A stretch of 64,000 bases of DNA from Nocardioides sp. zg-1228 (GTDB lineage: Bacteria; Actinomycetota; Actinomycetes; Propionibacteriales; Nocardioidaceae). The stretch spans positions 2,728,001 to 2,792,000 of the forward strand of contig NZ_CP070961.1 in NCBI RefSeq assembly GCF_017086465.1, read 5' to 3'. Both the position numbers and the translations under genes were made by a program. The stretch's first letter is position 1, and the number at the start of each line of letters is the position of its first letter. Below, one piece after another: positions 7,098-54,757 of this stretch. The notes under the pieces were generated by a model. The model was not told the origin of the DNA. It worked only from the letters and a program-made list of their open reading frames with translations, and ran no database searches.

Positions 7098-8968
7098 CGC
7101 GACGCCACCGTCGTCGAGCCGGAGCGCAGGGCGGCGAACTGCCCGACGGCCCGGATCCGGACCTTACCCCGCCCCCCGGGCAGCGCGACGCGGGCGAGGA
7201 ACCTGCCCTTGGCGTCGGCGCGACCCGTGGCGACCGTCGTGCCGGCGATCCGCAGGCGCACCTTCTCCCCTGCGGCGAGACGACGGACCAGCACCCGCGT
7301 GCGGGGGCCGTCGCTGGCGAGCGTGGACACGGCGAGGGTCCGCTTGCCGAGCACGCGGACCCGGCCGGTGGCCCGGCCGTCCGAGCCGGTCAGGACGTAC
7401 GTCGCCGCACCGGTCGTGCGCGGCAGCCGCACCACGCGGGCCAGCACGCCGTCGGAGCCGACGACGACGGTGGCGCCCGAGATCCCGGGACCACGGAGGG
7501 CGAAGCGGGCGCCCGGAGTCGCGCCGATCACCTCCAATGCCACCTTGCTGCCGCCCTTGTGGAAGCCGGCCGGCCCGGCGAGGCGGACGCCGGCGACCGA
7601 CCCGCGCGCGGACTCGGCCGCCCCGACGAGGACGGTGTGGGTGGTGGCGCCGTCGCGGCCGGTGAGCGTGTAGGTCGCCGCGCCGGCGGCAGCGGGAAGG
7701 ACGACCAGGGCGGTCAGGATGCCGTCGGAGCCCACGACGGCGGTGCGGGTGCCGTCGATGCCGGGCCCGGTGAGGCAGAAGCGGTCCCCCGGCGCCCCGC
7801 CGGTCGCGGTGAGGGTGGCGGTCGATCCCGGCTCGCTCCCGGTGGAGGTCGCGGTGAGCGCCTTCGCCGAGCCGCGGGCGTGGGTGAGACCGGCGACGGC
7901 CTGCACGGTCGCGCGCCACCACTGGTCGCGGCCGGCTCCGATGCCGGCCGTCGCGGCGCCGTCCAGCGCCGCCCGGTCGTAGGCGAGGGCCCCCTCCTCG
8001 TCGGCGAGCGGCGAGCCGTCCGGCTGGGCGCCGACCTGGAGCGTGGCGACCCAGTCGGCCGCGCGTCCGGACCGCTCGCAGGCGCCCGTGACGGCGAACG
8101 CGCTCGCGGCGAGCCCGGTGCTGTTGGTGTTGGGGTCTGGGGTGAAGGGGCTGCCGCCGAACGAGCCGTCGGCGCGCTGGGTGGTCGCGAGCCACTCGAC
8201 GGCCCGGGTGATCGCCCGGTCGACGGCCGCGGGCCGCGGCGAGACCTTCGCGAGCTGGACGACCGCGAAGGCGGTGGCGTCGGTGTCGGCCGGGTCGGTG
8301 CCGTCCACGCATGACTGGTCCGCCGCGGTGGCGTCGGGCGTGAAGAGCACGCGGAAGTAGCCGGACGCGCACTGCTGCTGCAGCAGGAAGTCGGTGGTGG
8401 CGGCGGCCTTGGCGGACCCCGCGACCGACAGGCCCCGTGCGGCCAGCGCCTGGCCGAAGAGGTTGGCGTAGTCGCCGTAGGCCGACTCGTCACGCAGGCG
8501 GCCTGCGCTCGGACCGCTCGCGACGACTCGCGCCTCCGTCTGGGCGACGAGGTCGACCCCGCCGTAGGTGCGCGGGTCGGCGCCGGAGACCTGCGCGAAG
8601 ACCATCGACTTGGCCAGCGAGCCGGCGTAGCGCTCGGTCGCGGACGGCGCGGCGTACTCCTCGACCCGGCCGGCGAGCGAGGACCGGATCTGGCGCACCA
8701 TGGCCTGGTCGCCGCCGACCTCGTCCATGCTGAGCCCGATGTCCATGGTCAGGCCGAGGTCGTCGAAGTCGTAGGTGTCGTTGTGGATGACACCGCCGGT
8801 GAGCTGTGTCGCCAGCCAGCCGGTGGCCGCGCGCGCGGCCCCGGATGCCGGGGCACCGGCGGCGCCTGCCGCGTGGGCGGGCGGGGCGAGGAGCGGCTGC
8901 GCGAACGTGGCAGCGGCCAGGGTGAGAGCGAGACCCGACAGGGCGGATCCCGACGCGGAGAACTTCAT
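7094..8968 (-). CDS. Secreted alpha-alpha-barrel repeat protein with Ig-like C-terminal repeats, probable cobalamin binder
   Basis: The 624-residue product begins with a signal peptide (about 1-33, ending APPAHA). Residues about 40-370 are helical repeats of the prenyltransferase/squalene-oxidase-like type, with motifs such as AATGWLATQL, ATTDFLLQQQCASGYFR and AVEWLATTQRADGSFGG. The same toroid underlies the intrinsic factor/transcobalamin alpha domain. The C-terminal part carries three beta-rich repeats built around GSDGxLxxxVxLP and GAATYxLTGxDG. There is no membrane anchor or LPXTG motif. It is the first gene after the cobalamin riboswitch and overlaps the beta-domain gene. The ATG at 8968 has the GGAAGGAA ribosome site nine bases upstream. 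Cobalamin binding is inferred, and a polysaccharide or terpene substrate is not excluded. Confidence 0.72.
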   Translation of the reverse strand: MKFSASGSALSGLALTLAAATFAQPLLAPPAHAAGAAGAPASGAARAATGWLATQLTGGVIHNDTYDFDDLGLTMDIGLSMDEVGGDQAMVRQIRSSLAGRVEEYAAPSATERYAGSLAKSMVFAQVSGADPRTYGGVDLVAQTEARVVASGPSAGRLRDESAYGDYANLFGQALAARGLSVAGSAKAAATTDFLLQQQCASGYFRVLFTPDATAADQSCVDGTDPADTDATAFAVVQLAKVSPRPAAVDRAITRAVEWLATTQRADGSFGGSPFTPDPNTNSTGLAASAFAVTGACERSGRAADWVATLQVGAQPDGSPLADEEGALAYDRAALDGAATAGIGAGRDQWWRATVQAVAGLTHARGSAKALTATSTGSEPGSTATLTATGGAPGDRFCLTGPGIDGTRTAVVGSDGILTALVVLPAAAGAATYTLTGRDGATTHTVLVGAAESARGSVAGVRLAGPAGFHKGGSKVALEVIGATPGARFALRGPGISGATVVVGSDGVLARVVRLPRTTGAATYVLTGSDGRATGRVRVLGKRTLAVSTLASDGPRTRVLVRRLAAGEKVRLRIAGTTVATGRADAKGRFLARVALPGGRGKVRIRAVGQFAALRSGSTTVASR

Positions 8969-8970
8969 GG

Positions 8971-9028
8971 TTCCTTCCCTCGCTGCAACAACGAGGGAGG
9001 GGGCAACGGCCGGTCCGCCCTCGCTGCA
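8971..9028 (-). promoter_or_regulatory. Expression platform: alternative sequestor/antisequestor hairpins over the ribosome site
   Basis: The minus-strand motif TGCAGCGAGGG occurs twice, at 9028-9018 and 8987-8977. Between them lies CCCTCG (8997-8992), which can pair with CGAGGG of either copy. Pairing with the proximal copy gives a hairpin with a nine-base loop that buries the ribosome site of the gene starting at 8968. Pairing with the distal copy (20-base loop) would leave the site free. This is the mutually exclusive geometry expected of a translation-controlling riboswitch. The pairing is seen in the sequence; the switching is inferred. Confidence 0.6.
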
Positions 9029-9030
9029 TT

Positions 9031-9180
9031 CCTCGACAGCGATGGTGATCAAGACGCGTCGAGGCAGGTGTTCCGGCTCGCACGGGATCGCTCCCGTGCC
9101 CACGGTTGCGGGTCAGCGCCGGTTTCGGACCGGCTTTCCCCAGCTCGGGCGTGTGTGGTGCCGACCCGGACGGGACGGCC
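9031..9180 (-). ncRNA. Cobalamin (B12) riboswitch
   Basis: The minus strand carries the conserved cobalamin aptamer core. GGGGAAAGCCGGTCCGAAA followed by CCGGCGCTGACCCGCAACCGTG covers 9141-9101, and GAGCCGGAACACCTGCC covers 9079-9063. These correspond to the GGGAA...CGGTG...AATCC core, the CCCGCNACTGT-like segment and the GCCAGRAGACCTGCC-like segment of the family. A seven-base-pair hairpin (9064-9058 with 9037-9031) with a 20-base loop sits where the regulatory kissing-loop helix P13 is expected. A TACGCT -10-like hexamer at 9191-9186 places the transcript start near 9180. It should lower expression of the five-gene ECF operon when adenosyl- or methylcobalamin is plentiful. Confidence 0.93.
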
Positions 9181-45738: not shown

Positions 45739-46941
45739 TCAGGCGCGCGCCTCGTCCACCCGGTCGACGATGAGGTCGGCGATCGGCAGGGCCGAGGTCG
45801 CTGCCGGCGACGGTGCGTTGACGACGTGCAGCGTGCGCGCGGTGTCGCGCATCAAGAAGTCGTGCACGAACGAGCCGTCGCGCATGACCGCCTGCGCCCG
45901 GATGCCGGCCTCCCGTGGCGTGAGGTCGTCCAGGCGCAGCTCGGGGCAGTACTTCTGGCACAGCCGGAGGTAGGCCTTCTTGGACAGCGAGTTGCGCATC
46001 TCGCGCGCACCGGTGCGGACGTTGGCGCGCGCGACGTGCCACATCCCGGGGAAGGTCACGATGTCGTGAGCGTCGCGTCGGTCGAAGGAGAACTTGGGAT
46101 AGCCCTCGCGCGAGAGCCCGAGGACGGCGTTGGGCCCCACGTTGAGGCCCCCGTCGACGGTCGGGGTGAGGTGGACGCCGAGGAACGGCAGCTCGGGGTC
46201 GGGGACGGGATAGATCAGCGTGCCGACGAGGTCGGCCCGCTCGGGGCGCACGTCGTAGTACTCGCCGCGGAACGGCACCATGGCGAAGTCGACCTCGAGC
46301 CCGGCCATCCGGGCCACGCGGTCGGCCTGCACGCCGGCGCAGAACACGACGTGCGAGCCGCGCACGTCACCGCGGCTCGTCGTCAGCACCACCTCCTGCG
46401 CGCTCTCGCGGATCCCCAGCACCCGGGTGTCGCGCAGGAGCGTCCCACCGGCCTCCTCGACCAGCGTCGCGAGCCGGCGGTTGATCAGGCCGTAGTCGGT
46501 GATGCCCGTCGCCGCGACGTGCAGCGCTCCCACACCGGCCACGTGCGGCTCGCGCTCCCGCAGCTCCGCACCCGACAAGACGGTGGTCGCGATCCCGTTG
46601 ACGACAGCGCGCTCCGCCAGCGCCTGCATGGCGGCGAGCTCGCGCTCGTCCGTGGCGACCAGGAGCTTGCCGATCCGCCGCCACGGGATGCCGTGCTGCT
46701 CGGCGAACTGCTCGGTGGCGGTCGCGCCGCGTCGGCACAGGTCTGCCTTGAGGCTGCCGGGGGTGTAGTAGATCCCGGAGTGGATCACGCCGCTGTTGTG
46801 ACCGGTCTGGTGCCGGCCGAACTCCGCCTCCTTGTCGAGGAGCAGCACGCGCCGGTCGGGGTGGCGCCGGCTGATGGTCCACGCGGTCGCGGCTCCCACG
46901 ATGCCACCGCCCACGACGACGTGATCAAAGATGTCGGCCAC
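45739..46941 (-). CDS. lhgO: L-2-hydroxyglutarate oxidase
   Basis: The 400-residue FAD protein has the dinucleotide motif VVGGGIVGAATAW near the N-terminus, GRHQTGHNSGVIHSGIYY (about 43-60) and the C-terminal ALPIADLIV. All are typical of LhgO, which oxidises L-2-hydroxyglutarate to 2-oxoglutarate and feeds electrons to the membrane. The start is the GTG at 46941 with GAGGATCC upstream. In this cluster it may recycle hydroxyglutarate made by an oxoglutarate-dependent sugar dehydrogenase. That is inference, and the enantiomer would have to match. Confidence 0.88.
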   Translation of the reverse strand: MADIFDHVVVGGGIVGAATAWTISRRHPDRRVLLLDKEAEFGRHQTGHNSGVIHSGIYYTPGSLKADLCRRGATATEQFAEQHGIPWRRIGKLLVATDERELAAMQALAERAVVNGIATTVLSGAELREREPHVAGVGALHVAATGITDYGLINRRLATLVEEAGGTLLRDTRVLGIRESAQEVVLTTSRGDVRGSHVVFCAGVQADRVARMAGLEVDFAMVPFRGEYYDVRPERADLVGTLIYPVPDPELPFLGVHLTPTVDGGLNVGPNAVLGLSREGYPKFSFDRRDAHDIVTFPGMWHVARANVRTGAREMRNSLSKKAYLRLCQKYCPELRLDDLTPREAGIRAQAVMRDGSFVHDFLMRDTARTLHVVNAPSPAATSALPIADLIVDRVDEARA

Positions 46942-46978
46942 GGGATCCTCCGAAGGTGTTCGTGCGAGGTCGGGCGAC

Positions 46979-47008
46979 AGCATAGGTTCTGCGTGCCGAG
47001 GGTAGGGT
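46979..47008. promoter_or_regulatory. Divergent -10 elements between lhgO and the coiled-coil gene
   Basis: In the 75-bp divergent spacer, TATGCT on the minus strand (46984-46979) faces lhgO. TAGGGT on the plus strand (47003-47008) ends eight bases before the GTG at 47017, suggesting a nearly leaderless transcript. No clear -35 boxes are visible. Confidence 0.4.
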
Positions 47009-47016
47009 GCTGCCCC

Positions 47017-47607
47017 GTGGAGAACCGGGGAGACGAGACCGACGACCCGCGTGTGGCTGCCAGGCTCGCCCGCGCGGAGAAGGCACTGCGACAGTCCGGG
47101 CGCGAGCTGAAGTGGTGGCAGATCGAGCTCGAGCACACCACGGAGTCGCTCCAGCGGGCCCGCCGCCAGCGCGCACGGCTGCGCGAGCAGGTGGACACCT
47201 TCTCCGATGCCCTCGCCGCGACGCTGTCGCGGGCCTATTGGGCCGACCGGGAGTCGCGGGGCACCGGTGTCGCCCGCCTGGTCGGACGACGCCCGTCGGG
47301 CGAGCGCGAGGCAGGCCTCGTGCGGCAGGTCGAGGCCAGCGGCGCCTTCGACGGAGGCTGGTACCTCCGGGCCCATCCGCAGGCGCTCCGCTCGGGCCTG
47401 AGCCCTGCCCTGCACTACGTCCGCCACGGCAACGCCAAGCGGCTCGATCCCGGGCCGTCGTTCAGCACCGCCGCGTACCTCGAGCGGCATCCCGAGGCGA
47501 CCCAGGAGGACCTGCCCGCCCTGGTCCACGCGATCCGCCACGACCGGCTCGGGGAGACGTCCCACGACGACGCGGCCGCGTCCCCGGCCAGCGACCTGCA
47601 CCTGTGA
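47017..47607 (+). CDS. Coiled-coil protein with YLxxxPxxxxG/HYxxxG repeats (module copy 1)
   Basis: The 196-residue protein has a charged coiled-coil (about 12-70, Leu/Ala/Arg/Glu-rich). A C-terminal pair of short repeats (about 105-180) follows: FDGGWYLRAHPQ...LHYVRHG, then FSTAAYLERHPE...LVHAIRH. The same repeat precedes many polysaccharide glycosyltransferases. Its stop overlaps the start of the rhamnan-synthesis-F-like gene (GTGA). A matching small gene sits in the mirror module at 52652-53182. It may tether or orient the large partner; no catalytic motif is visible. Confidence 0.7.
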   Translation: MENRGDETDDPRVAARLARAEKALRQSGRELKWWQIELEHTTESLQRARRQRARLREQVDTFSDALAATLSRAYWADRESRGTGVARLVGRRPSGEREAGLVRQVEASGAFDGGWYLRAHPQALRSGLSPALHYVRHGNAKRLDPGPSFSTAAYLERHPEATQEDLPALVHAIRHDRLGETSHDDAAASPASDLHL

Positions 47608-50189
47608 CCGACATGCTGGACCTCGCCGAGTTCGTCTCCCGCTGGCGCGCCTTCGTCTCGCGATGGGCCGCTGCGTCCGAGGACGAACGCTCCCGCCTCG
47701 TCCAGGACGCGATGGACCACGGGCTGCCGGATGGCGAGCCGGGCGAGGCACCCGACCGCGACGCGGTCCTGGCGGCGGAGGTGGCCGTCATCCGCGCGAG
47801 CGGGGAGTTCGACGAGTTCGGCTACATGTGGCACAACCCCGACCTGCGCTGGCACCTGTGCACCGGGCCCGAGCAGGCCATCCACTTCGCGGAGCGCGGA
47901 TGGCACGAGATGCGGCACCCCTCCCCCGGCTTCGACCTGTGGCACTACACCAACGCGTACCTCGACCCGGAGGACGACGAGGTCAACCCGGTGGTCCACT
48001 ACGCGCTCGAGGGCCGGCGCCACGGCCTCGACACCTTGCCGCAGGTGCGCGAGCTGCCGGCGCCGACAGCGCCGACCGGTGCGCCCCGGCGGGTCTGCCT
48101 CTTCGCGGCCTTCGACGTCGACGGCATCGTGGACCCGACCGTCGTGTCCTACCTCGCCGACCTCAGCCGGTTCGCCGACGTCTACTACCTCGCGGACTGC
48201 GAGCTCGAGGACGGCGAGCTCGACAAGCTCGCGCCCTACACGAAGGGCGCCTGGGCCGTGCGGCACGGCCGCTACGACTTCGGCTCGTACTCGATGCTCG
48301 CCACCGACCTCGTCGGGTGGGACGTCATCGACCAGTACGACGAGATGATGCTGGCCAACGACTCGTGCTGGCTCGTGCAGCCGCTCGACACCGTCTTCGC
48401 CAAGATGGACGCCACGGCGTGCGACTGGTGGGGCCTGCAGGCCACCTACGAGGACTTCGGCGTCAAGGAGCACGAGGCGCTCGGACGACCGCTGTCGCTC
48501 GACGACGTCGAGGAGCAGATGCGCCAGCAGGACCTGTGGCGCTACTCCGACTTCATCCACGTGGGGTCGTACTTCCTCGTCTACCGTCGACGCGTGCTGG
48601 ACGACCCGGAGTTCCGCCGCCGGCTCGAGACGGTCGCCAAGCAGCGTGACAAGACCGCGATCATCTTGAAGTACGAGATCGGGTTCTCCCGGTTGCTCAT
48701 CCTGGGGGGCTACCACCTCGCGACCTTCGTCGACGGGATCCTGCCCTACCACCCCGTCTACCGCGCCTCCGCCTTCGACGTGATGGCCGACGGGTTCCCA
48801 CTGCTGAAGAGGCAGTTCCTCTACGAGAACCCCTTCTCCGCGCCCGACCTGCGCCTGTGGAAGCAGCGGGTGCTCGAGCACGTCCCGGACGCCGACGTCG
48901 ACGCGATGGAGTCCAACCTGCGTCGCATCGCGCCGGCGTGGAGCCTGCATCGCAGCTTCGCGATCCGGTCCGGTCCCGACGGGACCGCGGTGCTGCCTGA
49001 GCCGCTCGGCTCGGAGACGTTCCCCGACGAGGACCGGTGGGTCCCGTCGTTCGACCACTGGTGGGGATTCCCGGTCGACCCGCGCACCGGCCTGCTCAGC
49101 GGTGCGGTCCGCGCCGTGTTCGACGCCGTGCGCGACGACCCCTCGGTGAAGAAGATCGTGCTCGAGGGCTCGCGCCCGCTCGACGTCTCCGGCCAGAACG
49201 TCGTGCGGATCGCCACCGAGAGCCCGCCGGGACAGATGTACGGCCTGCGGATGGGCACCATCCTCACCACCGTGGGACCACGCAGCGACGTCAACCACCC
49301 CCTCTCCCCGCGATACCACCGCTTCCTCCAGCTCGGCCGCCCCACCGGCCTGTCGTCGCCGGACGTCGGACTCGACGGCAGCGGCGACACCTGGGGCCTG
49401 CGCGACGCCAGCGCCGTGGAGCTCGACGACTCGCTCACCCGGGCCGTCGTGGTGTCCGGCGCGCGGGGTGCCGAGGCCGCTGCCCGGCTCGCGCGGCTCG
49501 ACCCCGACGGCGTGTGGGAGCTCGGTTCGCCCCGGATCGACCTGCTCGTCACCGGCGAGGCCGCCCTGGCCCCGGCGCACCGGGCCGAGATCGACCGGCT
49601 GCGCACGGTCCTCGCAGGCCGCCGACTCGTCGTCGTGGAGCCGTGGGGCGGTTCCGTCGACCTCGACGTGCTCGCCGCGTGGGCCGTGGCGCACCCGGAG
49701 GTCGCCGTCGGCGTACGCCCTCGCACGGGCGGCGGCGGCTCGCTCCCCGAGCCGCTTCTCGACCTCTCCGACGAGTCCCTGATCTCCGAGGACGCCAGGA
49801 CGCTGTTTCCGGTGCACCCGGAGACCGCCTGGCGCTGCGCGGACGTGCTGGTGTCCGGCTCCGTTGCCGACCTCGCTGACTGGGCTGTCCTCGGCCGCCC
49901 GGCCATCAGCCTCGTGGCGACGGACGAGGCGCTGGCCGCCGGGCTCCCGCTTCCGAAGACCGCGCGCGACGACCTCGGAGCAGCGCTCGACACCGCCCTC
50001 GGGGGACGTGCGGTCGAGGAGGCCTACGCGGACTGGGGCCGCGCCCTGCACGCGGCCAGCGACGGCCACGCTGCCGAGCGGGTCGTCCGCGCGATCAAGC
50101 GCACCTACCTGCCGATCGACGAGTGGGAGGCGGAGGAGGCGGCCGTGGACGCTGCTACGGGCACCGGGCCCGCCGTGTCCTTGTCCTGA
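47604..50189 (+). CDS. Rhamnan synthesis protein F-like glycosyltransferase with degenerate TagF-like domain (copy 1)
   Basis: The 861-residue protein has three parts. The N-terminal part (1-150) carries the same YxxxNPDL/HFAERG and YLDP/HYALEG repeats as its small partner. The middle part (about 165-440) matches RgpF-type proteins, with LFAAFDVDGIVD, VYYLADCEL, MMLANDSCWLV, CDWWGLQ and GSYFLVYRR. The C-terminal part (about 480-855) resembles a CDP-glycerol glycerophosphotransferase fold. There the motif WHGTPLK is replaced by QLGRPTGL and DYSS by GSVA, so that activity is doubtful. A role in rhamnose-containing surface glycan assembly is inferred. Its stop is nine bases from that of its convergent paralogue. 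Confidence 0.78.
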   Translation: MTDMLDLAEFVSRWRAFVSRWAAASEDERSRLVQDAMDHGLPDGEPGEAPDRDAVLAAEVAVIRASGEFDEFGYMWHNPDLRWHLCTGPEQAIHFAERGWHEMRHPSPGFDLWHYTNAYLDPEDDEVNPVVHYALEGRRHGLDTLPQVRELPAPTAPTGAPRRVCLFAAFDVDGIVDPTVVSYLADLSRFADVYYLADCELEDGELDKLAPYTKGAWAVRHGRYDFGSYSMLATDLVGWDVIDQYDEMMLANDSCWLVQPLDTVFAKMDATACDWWGLQATYEDFGVKEHEALGRPLSLDDVEEQMRQQDLWRYSDFIHVGSYFLVYRRRVLDDPEFRRRLETVAKQRDKTAIILKYEIGFSRLLILGGYHLATFVDGILPYHPVYRASAFDVMADGFPLLKRQFLYENPFSAPDLRLWKQRVLEHVPDADVDAMESNLRRIAPAWSLHRSFAIRSGPDGTAVLPEPLGSETFPDEDRWVPSFDHWWGFPVDPRTGLLSGAVRAVFDAVRDDPSVKKIVLEGSRPLDVSGQNVVRIATESPPGQMYGLRMGTILTTVGPRSDVNHPLSPRYHRFLQLGRPTGLSSPDVGLDGSGDTWGLRDASAVELDDSLTRAVVVSGARGAEAAARLARLDPDGVWELGSPRIDLLVTGEAALAPAHRAEIDRLRTVLAGRRLVVVEPWGGSVDLDVLAAWAVAHPEVAVGVRPRTGGGGSLPEPLLDLSDESLISEDARTLFPVHPETAWRCADVLVSGSVADLADWAVLGRPAISLVATDEALAAGLPLPKTARDDLGAALDTALGGRAVEEAYADWGRALHAASDGHAAERVVRAIKRTYLPIDEWEAEEAAVDAATGTGPAVSLS

Positions 50190-50198
50190 CCGGCCGGG

Positions 50199-52655
50199 TC
50201 AGGGGCGCGCCAGCCCCCGTTGGCGCACCCGCCGCACGAACCGGCGGGCCGCCGTCCCGTCGAGCGGCACCACGTCGCCCGCAGGGCTCCCGGGGGCCGG
50301 CCAGCCGGTGGCTGCGGCGCTCGACAGATGCTCCAGGAGCCCCGTGGCGGGCTCGCCGGGCGAGTGCACCACGTGGGCGTGACCGGCGGCCCGGGCGTCG
50401 AGGATCCCGGCCGCGGAGTCGCCGACGACTGCGGACGCCACGCGCAGCACGACCGCCTCGGACACCACGCTGCGGTCGCTGAGGCCGATCGGCGCGACCT
50501 GCCGGAGCGCGTGCGTCAGACCGGCGGGGTCGTCCGGGCGGTGCTCGCGCACCCCCAGGGCCACACCGGCGCCGACGGCCCACTCGCCGAGCCGCGCCAC
50601 GTCGTCGGACGCCAGGTCCGCGAGCCCGGGAGCCGCGAGCACGACGAGGGCGCGGCCGGCCAACCGGGCTCGCAGCCGCTCCTCGGCCAGCGCCAGGTCG
50701 TCGGGCAGCACGTCGGCGCGGAGGAGGTCGTGGCGCGGCAGGCCGGTCAGCCACACGTCGTCGTCGCCGAGGTGCGGATCCGCCACGCGACGCGTGACGG
50801 CCTCGTGGTCGGAGGTGGCGGCGACGGCGTCCACCGCGCCGAGAACCGGTGCGGCACGGCCGACGGCCCAGGGCGACCCCACGTGGACGACCCGGTGCCG
50901 GGCCGGCAGTGGCGCATGCGGGAGGGCGGCGTCGAGCGGGTCGGCGACCACGATCACGCCGCATCGCACCACGGCCTCCTGGCCGTCGAGGGTGGCGATC
51001 GGGACCACCCTCACGTTGCTGCCCGTGACGTCGTCGTGCAGGGGCCGGGTCCGGGTGAGCACGACCTTGCGCAGGCTCGGATCGTGCCGGACCTCCTCGA
51101 ACACCGCACGCACGCCGGGGTCGAGCCGACCCGACGGCCCTGCCGCGAAGGCCCACCAGTGGCCGAAGGACGGCGTCTCGCGGTCCAGGCGCCGGAACGG
51201 GTGTCCGGCGAGGGCGGAGGTGCGCACGGTGCGTCGTCCCGTCGCGGGGTCCACCGTGACGTCGTACGCGTCGTACAGCCTGGCCGGGTCGGTGACCCGC
51301 TCGACGTCGGCGGCCATCTCCTCGATCCGCGCTGCGGGCGCCAGCTCACGCAGCCTCTCGCGCCACTCCCCCACGCCGGGAGCACGGCGCGGGTTCTCGC
51401 CGAGGAAGTTGCGCTTGACCAGGGGGAAGCCCCGACCGATCAGCTCGAAGACGTGGCGGGAGTAGAGCGGGTGGAAGGGCTCGAGCTCGGGCAACCACGT
51501 GCCGAAGTCGTAGCCCGCGTTCATCAGGTGCCGGCTGAGCCCGATCTCGTACTTGTGCACCACGAGCCCCTTGGCCTCCTGGGGCACCACGGTGTCGAGG
51601 CGCCAGCGGAATCCGGGGTCGGCCAGCACCGGTCTGCGGAAGACGAGGAAGTACGAGCTCAGGTGGAGGTAGCGCACGTCGCTGAAGTGGCGCGACCCCA
51701 GGAAGCGCTGCTTGGCCTCTGCGAGCGACATCGCGGAGTCGTCGCGGAAGTAGTTCTCGTCGTGCTCCATCGTCGTGGCCTGGAGGCTCCACCAGTCGCA
51801 CGCTCTCGCGTCCATCGTCGCGAAGACCTCGTCGAGCGGTCGCAGCAGGAAGCACGAGTCGTTGGCGAGCAGCAGCTCGTCGTAGGTGTCGACGACGTCC
51901 CAGCCCACCAGGTCGCGGGCGAGCATCGAGAAGGAGCCGAAGTCGTAGCCGCCGTGCGGCACGCTCCACGCACCTGCGGTGACGTCGGCGAGGCGGTCGA
52001 GCTGGCCCGGCTCGAGCACGCCGTCGGCGAGGTAGTACACGTCGGCGTGCCGGGAGAGCTCGCGCAGGTAGGTCACGACGTAGTCGTCGACGAGGCCGTC
52101 GGCGTCGTACGCGGCGAAGAAGCAGATCCGGCGCGGCGGCGCGCCCTCGGCCGAGGGCAGCGGCGGCCGCTCCGGGGCCGGCGGCGGCAGCGCATCCCAG
52201 CCCAGGTGTCGGCCCAGCACCAGCCAGTGGAGCAGCGGGTCCGCCCCGTCGCGGGTCGGGTCGAGGTGGTCGACCCAGTAGGACCAGAGATCGAAGCGGG
52301 GACTGGGGTTCTGCAGCAGCCGCCAGCCGGTCTCCACGTGGTGGCGGTAGGGGTCGGTGCCGCGCCGCAGCCGGTGACGCACGACGTACTCGTCGGCGTC
52401 GAGGTAGCCGCTGGCCGCCACGACGGCGCGAGCGGCCGCGAGCGAGAACCGCTCCGCGGGCTCGTCGTCGGTCCGCCCCTCGGGCAGCCCGTCTCGCAGG
52501 ACCTCCTCGACCAGCGCCCAGGCGGCCTCAGGACCCTCCGCCGCAGCGCGGCGCCACCGACGCACGAACACAGCCCACCGGGCGTGGAAGTCGTCCAGGA
52601 GCGCGCGGCGCTGGGCCAGCTGCTCCTCGAGCGCCGAGTGCTCGAGGCCCGTCAC
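50199..52655 (-). CDS. Rhamnan synthesis protein F-like glycosyltransferase with degenerate TagF-like domain (copy 2)
   Basis: The 818-residue paralogue of the 47604 product has the same three-part structure. Its RgpF-like core has FFAAYDADGLVD, VYYLADGVL, LLLANDSCFLL, CDWWSLQ and SSYFLVFRR. The C-terminal part keeps TGLPRHDLL and VVGDSAAGILD, which recall TagF-type enzymes, but has HVGSPW where WHGTP is expected. It starts at the GTG at 52655, which overlaps the stop of its coiled-coil partner (GTGA). Divergence between the copies is considerable, so the duplication is old and the two may add different residues. Confidence 0.78.
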   Translation of the reverse strand: MTGLEHSALEEQLAQRRALLDDFHARWAVFVRRWRRAAAEGPEAAWALVEEVLRDGLPEGRTDDEPAERFSLAAARAVVAASGYLDADEYVVRHRLRRGTDPYRHHVETGWRLLQNPSPRFDLWSYWVDHLDPTRDGADPLLHWLVLGRHLGWDALPPPAPERPPLPSAEGAPPRRICFFAAYDADGLVDDYVVTYLRELSRHADVYYLADGVLEPGQLDRLADVTAGAWSVPHGGYDFGSFSMLARDLVGWDVVDTYDELLLANDSCFLLRPLDEVFATMDARACDWWSLQATTMEHDENYFRDDSAMSLAEAKQRFLGSRHFSDVRYLHLSSYFLVFRRPVLADPGFRWRLDTVVPQEAKGLVVHKYEIGLSRHLMNAGYDFGTWLPELEPFHPLYSRHVFELIGRGFPLVKRNFLGENPRRAPGVGEWRERLRELAPAARIEEMAADVERVTDPARLYDAYDVTVDPATGRRTVRTSALAGHPFRRLDRETPSFGHWWAFAAGPSGRLDPGVRAVFEEVRHDPSLRKVVLTRTRPLHDDVTGSNVRVVPIATLDGQEAVVRCGVIVVADPLDAALPHAPLPARHRVVHVGSPWAVGRAAPVLGAVDAVAATSDHEAVTRRVADPHLGDDDVWLTGLPRHDLLRADVLPDDLALAEERLRARLAGRALVVLAAPGLADLASDDVARLGEWAVGAGVALGVREHRPDDPAGLTHALRQVAPIGLSDRSVVSEAVVLRVASAVVGDSAAGILDARAAGHAHVVHSPGEPATGLLEHLSSAAATGWPAPGSPAGDVVPLDGTAARRFVRRVRQRGLARP

Positions 52656-53182
52656 CGGCGGGCCGGCGGGTAGGCGTCGGCGCCCTCGGACTCCGCGGAG
52701 GCCAGGAAGTGCACGAGCGGGTTCACCCGCTCGACGAGCACCTCCGGGTGGTCGAGGACGTACTGGGCGATGTCGAAGGCCTCGCTGGGCCTGCGGAACG
52801 GATGGTCCCAGTGCCGCAGGAAGTGGACGCCGGGGTCCTCGCCGCGGCGGGCCACGTCGAGGTGGCTGCGGAGGTAGTAGGCCGCGTCGAAGAGCGGCGA
52901 CTGGCGGATCAGCTCGAGCTGCCCAGCCTCCTCCGGCGTCACGGTCGCCGCGCCGCGCCGCCACCACGAGCGCTCCGCCGCGCCCGCCACAGCCGTCTCG
53001 CCGCGCAGTCGCTCGGCGAGGAGCGCCGAGAGCACGTCGGCCGCCTTGACGGCGCGGTCGCGCGACTTGCGGAGCCGCGCCTCGCGCTCGCCGGCCCTCT
53101 CCTGGTCGGCGCGCGCTGCCGCGAGCTCACGGCGCAGCAGGTCCACCTCGTCGTGGAGGCTGTCGGGGTCGGACTCGCTCAC
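52652..53182 (-). CDS. Coiled-coil protein with YLxxxPxV/HFLRHW repeats (module copy 2)
   Basis: The protein of about 176 residues mirrors the 47017 product. A coiled-coil (about 5-60, with the heptad-like LHDEVDLLRRELAAARADQERAG) is followed by FDAAYYLRSHLDV...VHFLRHW and FDIAQYVLDHPEV...LVHFLAS. The GTG at 53182 gives the start VSESDPDS; another GTG at 53191 would add three residues. It follows the CrtA-like gene by ten bases and overlaps its large partner. The function is unknown and probably structural. Confidence 0.7.
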   Translation of the reverse strand: MSESDPDSLHDEVDLLRRELAAARADQERAGEREARLRKSRDRAVKAADVLSALLAERLRGETAVAGAAERSWWRRGAATVTPEEAGQLELIRQSPLFDAAYYLRSHLDVARRGEDPGVHFLRHWDHPFRRPSEAFDIAQYVLDHPEVLVERVNPLVHFLASAESEGADAYPPARR

Positions 53183-53192
53183 GCGCCGCACT

Positions 53193-53900
53193 CTAGCGAG
53201 CCGCTGGTCGGGGGACGATGCCCGTGCGGCCCTGCCACGCGCCGTGCTCGGAGAGCGGGCGGAAGCGGTAGGTCGCGAACTCGTGGTGGAAGTCGCGACG
53301 CTCGCGCTCGGCCATGGCCGCCGCGTGCCGCGCCGGCTCGGGCACCGCGGAGCGCCCGTGGACCATCTCCTCCATCTCGTGCACCGTGCGCCAGACGGAG
53401 AACGTGGAGATCGTGCGCGGCGGACGCAGTGCGGCCACCGCCAGGGTGGTGGCCGGGTGGTCGCGGACGAGGCGCTCGACGGGCCGCCCGCTGTGCAGGA
53501 AGCGTGGCAGCTCGGGCAGCCGCATCCGGGCGAGCGTCACGGCCACGACGGGCTCGTCGCGGTCCCATCGCCCGGCGCGGACGGGGAGGTCGGGGAGGGC
53601 CGCGATGCTCGACCACCGGCGCAGGAACTCCAGGCGGACGTGCCATCCGTGGGCGAGCTCGCGCCCGAGCGGGTCGCGCTCGAGGAAGCGGTCGAGGGAG
53701 GCCTCGTCGCGCCACTGCGCGAAGACCGCGAGCCGGCTCAGCTGAAGGCGTTCGGGGGACACCACGGGCGCACCGAGGCGCATCAGGGACAGGCACTCGA
53801 CGTGGTCGAGGCCAGGCGTCGTGGCGCCGGGAGGCCGGAGCAGCGCCCGCGCACCGACCCGGTGCGGCACCTCGGCGAGGTGGAAGGAGTGCAGGGTCAC
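53193..53900 (-). CDS. Spheroidene monooxygenase (CrtA)-like protein
   Basis: The 235-residue protein resembles the CrtA family: DEASLDRFLERDPLGRELAHGWHVRLE near residues 65-95, then a C-terminal ISTFSVWRTVHEMEEMVHG segment of the ferredoxin-like fold seen in antibiotic-biosynthesis monooxygenases. CrtA oxidises spheroidene in phototrophs, but no carotenoid genes are visible here, so the true substrate is unknown. The GTG at 53900 overlaps the stop of the upstream unknown gene. Co-transcription with that gene is likely. Confidence 0.65.
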   Translation of the reverse strand: MTLHSFHLAEVPHRVGARALLRPPGATTPGLDHVECLSLMRLGAPVVSPERLQLSRLAVFAQWRDEASLDRFLERDPLGRELAHGWHVRLEFLRRWSSIAALPDLPVRAGRWDRDEPVVAVTLARMRLPELPRFLHSGRPVERLVRDHPATTLAVAALRPPRTISTFSVWRTVHEMEEMVHGRSAVPEPARHAAAMAERERRDFHHEFATYRFRPLSEHGAWQGRTGIVPRPAAR

Positions 53901-54757
53901 GGGCGGCGCTCCAGCTTGTAGTGCAGCCGGACGGCCGACGCGCGACCCAGCCGCAGCTCGTGGTCGGTGCGCAGCACCCCGTCGGGGTCGACGTGGACAT
54001 GGAAGGACTCGTGCAGGGGCACCCGGGCGGCGTGGACCTTCCGGTCGGCGACCACGATGTAGGCGCCGTCGTCGCCGAACCGGCCGGACTGCGAGGACAG
54101 CAGGAGCCCGCCGTCGGTGGTGACCTCGGGGCGCAGGAACACCTGGACGTTGCCCGACTCGAGCGGGAACGCGACGTGGACGCTCGCGCGGTCGGCGCCC
54201 GGAAGGGTCCGAGCCGAGTAGGCGCCGCTGAACACCGGCCTCCCGCTGCCGCGCAGGGTGCGCGTCCAAGCGGCCGCGACCTGCTCGCCCTGCCGGTCGA
54301 GGATCGGGGTGATGCGGCTGTCCATGCCGCGGGCGACCTCGAGGGGGCGCATCGGCAGGGCGAGCTGCTCGACCCGCCGGCCCCACAGCCGAGAGACGAC
54401 CTCGCCGGCTGGCCAGAAGAGCGGCGACCAGCCCGTCCAGACCTCCATGTGCCACTGCGTCGTGCACTCGTAGAAGTCGCGGACCTCGGGGCGGAGCCGC
54501 GCGGCGTCGAAGCCGGGGCCGTCGAGCACCGCCATCGACGGCAGCAACCCGGCGTGCGGGCCGGGCTCGCCCGTCACGCCCCCGTGCCGGGCGGCCTCGG
54601 CCGCCGCCCACTCCTCGCCGACCCGCGGCGACGCGCTCACGGGCGCGTCCAGCCAGCGCTCGGCGCCCTGGAGGTCGACCCGGCGCCCGGTGAGCCGCCA
54701 GAGCCTCCGGGACCCGAGGTCGAGCAGCTGCGACGCGTGGGGCACGCGCCGGATCAT
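53897..54757 (-). CDS. Conserved-looking protein of unknown function
   Basis: I do not recognise this 286-residue protein. It has no signal peptide or clear membrane helix. It is rich in Trp in one stretch (YECTTQWHMEVWTGWSPLFW, about residues 95-114), followed by beta-rich sequence with SAYSAR-like, HVAFPL and FHVHVDPDG segments. The base composition matches its neighbours. It starts seven bases after the radical SAM gene stop and is coupled to the CrtA-like gene by a GTGA overlap. The pair may act together on a hydrophobic substrate, but that is speculation. Confidence 0.6.
   Translation of the reverse strand: MIRRVPHASQLLDLGSRRLWRLTGRRVDLQGAERWLDAPVSASPRVGEEWAAAEAARHGGVTGEPGPHAGLLPSMAVLDGPGFDAARLRPEVRDFYECTTQWHMEVWTGWSPLFWPAGEVVSRLWGRRVEQLALPMRPLEVARGMDSRITPILDRQGEQVAAAWTRTLRGSGRPVFSGAYSARTLPGADRASVHVAFPLESGNVQVFLRPEVTTDGGLLLSSQSGRFGDDGAYIVVADRKVHAARVPLHESFHVHVDPDGVLRTDHELRLGRASAVRLHYKLERRP

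Follow-up and report, generated by a model that had tools for sequence, protein, structure and literature searches.

Convergent small-large gene pairs in Nocardioides sp. zg-1228: probable glycopolymer synthases with an RgpF domain, a degenerate TagF-fold domain and a detached coiled-coil/repeat subunit

Overview of the Convergent Gene Pairs

The window analyzed here, 64,000 nucleotides of the Nocardioides sp. zg-1228 genome (RefSeq assembly GCF_017086465.1, contig NZ_CP070961.1, positions 2,728,001 to 2,792,000), contains two convergent gene pairs, each with a small gene (s) followed by a large gene (L), referred to as sA-LA and sB-LB (Table 1). Each s-L pair probably encodes a synthesis machine for a sugar polymer of the cell surface. 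The best reading, with a probability of roughly 0.6, is a glycopolymer synthase that has a detached coiled-coil/repeat subunit (s) and carries in its large chain a TagF pseudo-domain. What is new is that one chain combines RgpF and TagF folds and that both L copies have lost the TagF site. The two pairs are homologous to one another far above chance as judged from their sequences, with 39% identity across 823 amino acids (aa) between LA and LB (E 6e-143) and 29% identity between sA and sB (E 2e-14).

Domain Architecture of the Large Proteins

RgpF domains (Pfam PF05045) were identified at aa 197-409 of LA (63.7 bits) and aa 209-417 of LB (67 bits), well over the cut-off of 25 bits, with E-values of 1.8e-17 and 1.7e-18 for the two large proteins. 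The motifs YDFGSY, ANDS, DWWG, and KYEIG are intact in LA, and across all LA and LB proteins the motif blocks YDFGS, NDS, DWWG, SYF, and KYEIG are either intact or conservatively changed. The RgpF match, however, spans only about 210 of the 818-861 residues. In the Pfam profile search of the window proteins, neither LA nor LB matched PF04464, the CDP-glycerol:poly(glycerophosphate) glycerophosphotransferase family. An L copy in N. terrae matches this family at 2e-47 in the same chain, after RgpF; the L proteins of other relatives match it at 3e-50 and 3e-52, and degenerate copies range from 5e-21 down to no match.

The structure of LA was predicted with AlphaFold2 (AF2) from 13 sequences, with a mean predicted local distance difference test (pLDDT) score of 82.8. 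Residues 454-841 of the model superimpose on TagF (3l7l) with a Z-score of 27.4 and a root-mean-square deviation of 4.2 Å over 340 residues, followed by the Cps3D capsule polymerase (Z 24.8) and TarL (Z 20.9). This comparison hardly probed the RgpF domain, as the TagF domain filled the match list. The L family profile also matches TarL, TagF, and Cps3D by sequence. Based on the PF04464 matches of relatives after RgpF, the TagF fold of the LA model, and the family profile, L consists of a helical-repeat (HR) domain, an RgpF domain, and a TagF-fold domain. An earlier note on this DNA had called the large genes RgpF-like, a label that is right for the RgpF domain but overlooked the C-terminal half with its TagF fold.

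Loss of the TagF Active Site

L was found in 16 of 198 genomes searched family-wide, in 20 of 147 from the same genus, and in 10 of 395 class-wide. The class-wide protein searches placed the family in three of the 137 genera sampled; Demequina was added from a separate search. The loci fall into several arrangements (Table 2), and the state of the TagF site follows these arrangements. In all 13 tabulated two-copy tandem loci, which take in N. agariphilus and Demequina, exactly one L carries LWHGIPLKR-type, REHMAD, and S/TDYSS sequences. Among the ten convergent genomes, no L copy keeps the full set of WHG, REH, and SDYSS: the WHG block is replaced and SDYSS is lost in both LA and LB throughout, and the REH histidine is gone from 10/10 LA and 9/10 LB. 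The losses are not the same in LA and LB, neither in the residues concerned nor in the manner, and they extend to all three blocks. For TagF, H444 of the WHG block probably acts as the base, and a further histidine is also required (PMC11666461).

Genome-wide, PF04464 scores do not exceed 46 bits in nine of the ten convergent genomes, where they represent partial matches to other proteins of ~380 aa, while the tandem genomes have matches of at least 148 bits; G214, the deepest branch of the convergent set, reaches 96 bits in LA. The nine low-scoring genomes hold no convincing TagF at all. TagD (TIGR01518) was taken as a marker of CDP-glycerol supply; a related cytidylyltransferase is present in 28/28 genomes, over the cut-off in three only.

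Conservation within L differs accordingly by domain. The mean identities of the RgpF and C-terminal domains are 0.76 and 0.555 among LA orthologues, 0.766 and 0.538 in LB, and 0.647 and 0.46 in L1, while in L2, which has an intact TagF site, they are 0.535 and 0.663. Constraint thus shifts between the two domains with the state of the TagF site, and RgpF is the conserved domain in the convergent clade. Nevertheless, the ratio of nonsynonymous to synonymous substitution rates (dN/dS) of the C-terminal domain in LA and LB is 0.23-0.29. This purifying selection suggests that the domain persists as a folded unit, or with an altered activity.

It is worth noting that one tandem locus shows the reverse of the window copies: the TagF site of L2 in G127 (L047:10464-13040) is intact, and the RgpF domain of this L is degenerate, with SATAKG in place of YDFGSY and DDD in place of NDS.

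The Small Protein and Its Relationship to L

The AF2 model of sA, built from seven sequences (mean pLDDT 81.5), comprises a single helix of 72 residues (aa 11-82) followed by a compact helical domain (aa 94-180). By hhalign, the compact domain is a homologue of the HR domain at the N-terminus of L (probability 99.2%, E 1e-19), whereas a control with another stretch of L gave E 0.36. The HR motif reads FD..YL..hP....G..P..HY...G; no Pfam model matched it in the window proteins, and a Foldseek search of the PDB with the small protein returned no meaningful match. The motif is nonetheless widespread. When the HR stretch of Demequina was used in tblastn, 98 plasmid records matched; the annotation is glycosyltransferase in many or most cases and M10 metallopeptidase in one.

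A part that is fused in one species and split in another is a classical hint of interaction. In Demequina, the repeats, RgpF, and TagF form one long chain and a separate s is absent; in N. agariphilus, the open reading frame (ORF) upstream holds coil-like sequence only, and an extra repeat is located at the N-terminus of L1. The fusion of the repeat to L in Demequina, and partly in N. agariphilus, while it is separate elsewhere, therefore hints that s and L interact.

The two genes are also coupled across genomes. A complete, separate s directly precedes 36 of the 39 full-length L genes that lead an operon, and at 25 of these 36 joints start and stop overlap by exactly 4 nt, with L starts set by alignment. 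The s tree mirrors the L tree, with the same A/B/tandem structure. Co-inheritance, coupling, and fusion together suggest that s and L may form a complex. The earlier note had proposed an obligate complex of conserved small-large pairs. The pairing does exist, occurs in duplicate, and is passed on as a unit; a strict 1:1 obligate relationship, on the other hand, is too strong a claim, as two L share a single s in tandem loci, fusions occur, and short L proteins have no s. Not every full-length L has its own s, since the second L of tandem loci lacks one, as does L132, the second tandem locus of G215.

In L132 (3566-8532), the tandem L-L genes are followed by a probable sulfotransferase gene (8532-9149). 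The genome that carries the window also encodes a third, ordinary RgpF protein of 314 aa at 2.609 Mb (L133:3305-4249), with neither s nor a TagF domain; its neighbors are a large, glycosyltransferase-like protein whose repeats are similar, and an ammonium-transporter-like gene (L133:3305-7004).

Origin of the Two Modules

Trees of L (FastTree and a quick IQ-TREE run) recovered LA and LB as each monophyletic across the ten convergent Nocardioides genomes, with Shimodaira-Hasegawa-like approximate likelihood ratio (SH-aLRT) support of 100 and 99. LB clusters with the solo s-L loci from another genus of the family, and enforcing a joint LA+LB clade costs 23 log units (approximately unbiased (AU) test, p 0.031). 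Judging from these trees, LA and LB are old paralogues. The mirror-image duplication described in the earlier note is thus not a recent event: although the mirror layout and the homology of both pairs would fit an s-L module that was duplicated and inverted recently in this strain, the low identities between the pairs, the orthologues of each copy in ten genomes, the rejection of an LA+LB clade, and the position of LB with loci of another genus make such an event highly improbable. An old inverted duplication is possible, should better sampling join LA and LB.

All ten convergent genomes hold both L copies in one orthologous locus. The gap between the convergent modules varies, from 4-14 bp overlaps to 16 bp, 223 bp, and several kb of inserted genes, so that the nine-base spacing pointed out in the earlier note is exact in the window but differs in the other convergent genomes. 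In G206 and G173 (L036:5632-15089 and L076:7499-14174), inserts of 6.7-9.5 kb with transposase-like ORFs split the modules, both of which are intact.

Proposed Function and Alternatives

In the explanation we favor, each s-L pair would be a cytoplasmic glycopolymer glycosyltransferase, with L as the catalytic chain and s as a detached accessory subunit. The ancestral machine probably alternated sugar transfer by RgpF with polyol-phosphate transfer by TagF, and in the ancestral locus two L chains probably shared the work, one alone keeping the TagF site. In the window lineage, neither L copy would then have kept the TagF site (which is gone from nearly all of these genomes as well), and the phosphate step was dropped. 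Because the site is lost in both copies, LA and LB would now be two RgpF-type transferases of sugar only, possibly making two linkages of one neutral polymer, with the TagF-fold domain retained as a folded scaffold or binding surface. The s protein would bring an extra repeat domain on a long helix, most likely docking on the N-terminal repeats of L, and would oligomerize or position the enzyme. The full history, in which a sugar/polyol-phosphate polymerase became, in this Nocardioides lineage, a pair of sugar-only synthases that keep the dead TagF domain folded as a scaffold and run with a detached coiled-coil/repeat subunit, is put forward tentatively, at somewhat less than even odds.

Several observations weigh against this explanation. 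A histidine persists at the WHG position in 2/10 LA (G200 and G214), and REH is still present in the LB of the window. A dN/dS well below 1 fits a changed but active C-terminal enzyme equally well. The correlation between the s and L trees (r = 0.888, 0/2000 permutations) partly reflects shared species history, although the A/B split within one genome does not. In addition, s is absent at the tandem locus L132 and next to the short L, which suggests that it is dispensable for some RgpF proteins.

Among the alternatives, LA and LB could be independent enzymes that make different linkages or polymers, with the convergent layout a historical accident and s a general stabilizer of L. The age of the two paralogues, the occurrence of solo s-L loci, and the intact modules of G173 and G206 despite their separation by genes that include transposases are all consistent with independence. 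However, both copies remain together in one orthologous locus in every convergent genome, and tandem loci always pair one TagF-intact L with one TagF-degenerate L; this retention and pairing suggest two L chains working together. We regard full independence as rather unlikely, but as the strongest of the competing explanations.

It is less likely still that the C-terminal domain is alive with a switched donor, i.e., a GT-B site with a non-WHG motif that uses a sugar or hexose phosphate, which would make LA and LB bifunctional glycosyltransferases. Such a switch would agree with the purifying selection on the domain and with the full-length TagF fold in the LA model, and QHG and QYA variants of WHG are found in other GT-B transferases (PMC11666461). 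By contrast, the motif losses differ between LA and LB and affect all three blocks, and conservation in LA and LB is lowest, or nearly so, in the C-terminal domain.

If the full history outlined above is right, the polymer chemistry could be read from how many s and L genes a locus has and in which order. Genes that would be labeled as rhamnan synthesis F and as a hypothetical coiled coil become a defined module, in which RgpF and TagF share one chain and the adaptor is separate. Close relatives, with TagF sites that are intact, half-intact, or dead, provide a natural experiment on the transition from phosphate-containing to neutral wall polymers, and also bears on whether dead transferase domains persist as scaffolds. 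It can be predicted, and tested, that s binds L, and that the C-terminal site is dispensable in the convergent clade and needed in the tandem relatives.

Gene Layout and Genomic Context

The coordinates of the two gene pairs, the tail-to-tail meeting of LA and LB with nine bases between them, and the GTGA overlap at both small-large joints, all reported in the earlier note, proved exact to the base. The genome carrying the window is a single contig of 4.05 Mb. No promoter- or terminator-like sites were found in a scan of 46900-53400.

Table 1. Coordinates of the s-L locus and its parts within the window.
Feature	Position	Strand	Description
sA	47017-47607	+	196 aa; ORF; 72-residue coiled-coil-like helix and HR domain
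LA	47604-50189	+	861 aa; ORF; HR domain, RgpF domain, degenerate TagF-fold domain
LA RgpF domain region	48051-48848	+	about aa 150-415; conserved part in the LA clade
LA TagF-fold pseudo-domain	48963-50126	+	about aa 454-841; WHG, REH, SDYSS degenerate
Gap between convergent LA and LB stop codons	50190-50198	.	nine bases, from sequence
LB	52655-50199	-	818 aa; ORF; domain order as in LA, TagF motifs degenerate
sB	53182-52652	-	176 aa; ORF; alternative GTG start 53191

Table 2. Arrangements of s and L genes among the genomes.
Arrangement	Occurrence
Convergent s-L/L-s	ten genomes: G000, G082 (N. ganghwensis), G142 (N. cavernae), G173, G206, G097, G253, G282, G200, G214
Tandem s-L1-L2, one s	eleven genomes
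Solo s-L	four genomes
Short RgpF-only L, without s	four genomes
HR fused to L	Demequina, N. agariphilus (partly)
Tandem L-L, without s	L132, second tandem locus of G215

The genes at 35.8-45.7 kb of the window encode two DegT aminotransferases, a hexapeptide acyltransferase, a glycosyltransferase of family 4 (GT4), an epimerase, a Gfo/Idh protein, and a flippase-like membrane protein, a content that suits glycan synthesis. Two genes at 53193-54757 lie just upstream of sB on the same strand as sB; the one at 53193-53900, spheroidene-monooxygenase-like by eye, matched no Pfam family. The order of these genes, together with a radical SAM (S-adenosylmethionine) gene further upstream, is kept in related genomes.

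Comparison with Known Systems

RgpF of streptococci (rhamnan synthesis protein F) has been proposed to extend polyrhamnose (PMC8327497). LA and LB resemble it in the RgpF domain, with the family motifs intact, and a glycosyltransferase-type role in the extension of wall polysaccharide chains would be the natural reading for them as well; unlike streptococcal RgpF, they hold this domain as one among three. We found no papers that deal with a fusion of RgpF and TagF or with RgpF in Nocardioides.

The TagF/TarL CDP-polyol phosphotransferases share the C-terminal fold of LA, as indicated by the Z-scores given above. All of their active-site motifs are present in the intact L of the tandem relatives, whereas LA and LB of the window differ in that WHG and SDYSS are gone and no PF04464 score is obtained.

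Another close system is Cps3D (8qoy) of Actinobacillus pleuropneumoniae, which likewise joins a helical-repeat domain, a glycosyltransferase, and a TagF-like transferase in one chain. TagF-like capsule polymerases combine a repeat domain, a sugar transferase, and a polyol-phosphate transferase in a single chain (PMC11666461), and the alternating transfer of sugar and glycerol-phosphate by Cps3D could serve as the template for the ancestral L. L differs in that its second glycosyltransferase is of the RgpF type and that its repeat has a different short motif, with neither a Pfam model nor a PDB match in the searches made here. Furthermore, the family of the window carries part of the repeat on a protein of its own (s), while the tetratricopeptide repeat (TPR) and catalytic modules form one chain in all CpsD homologues analyzed (PMC11666461). 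Detached coiled-coil/repeat subunits are not known from TagF-like polymerases. Overall, the window proteins have the Cps3D-type architecture but not the active TagF site, and the tandem relatives have both.

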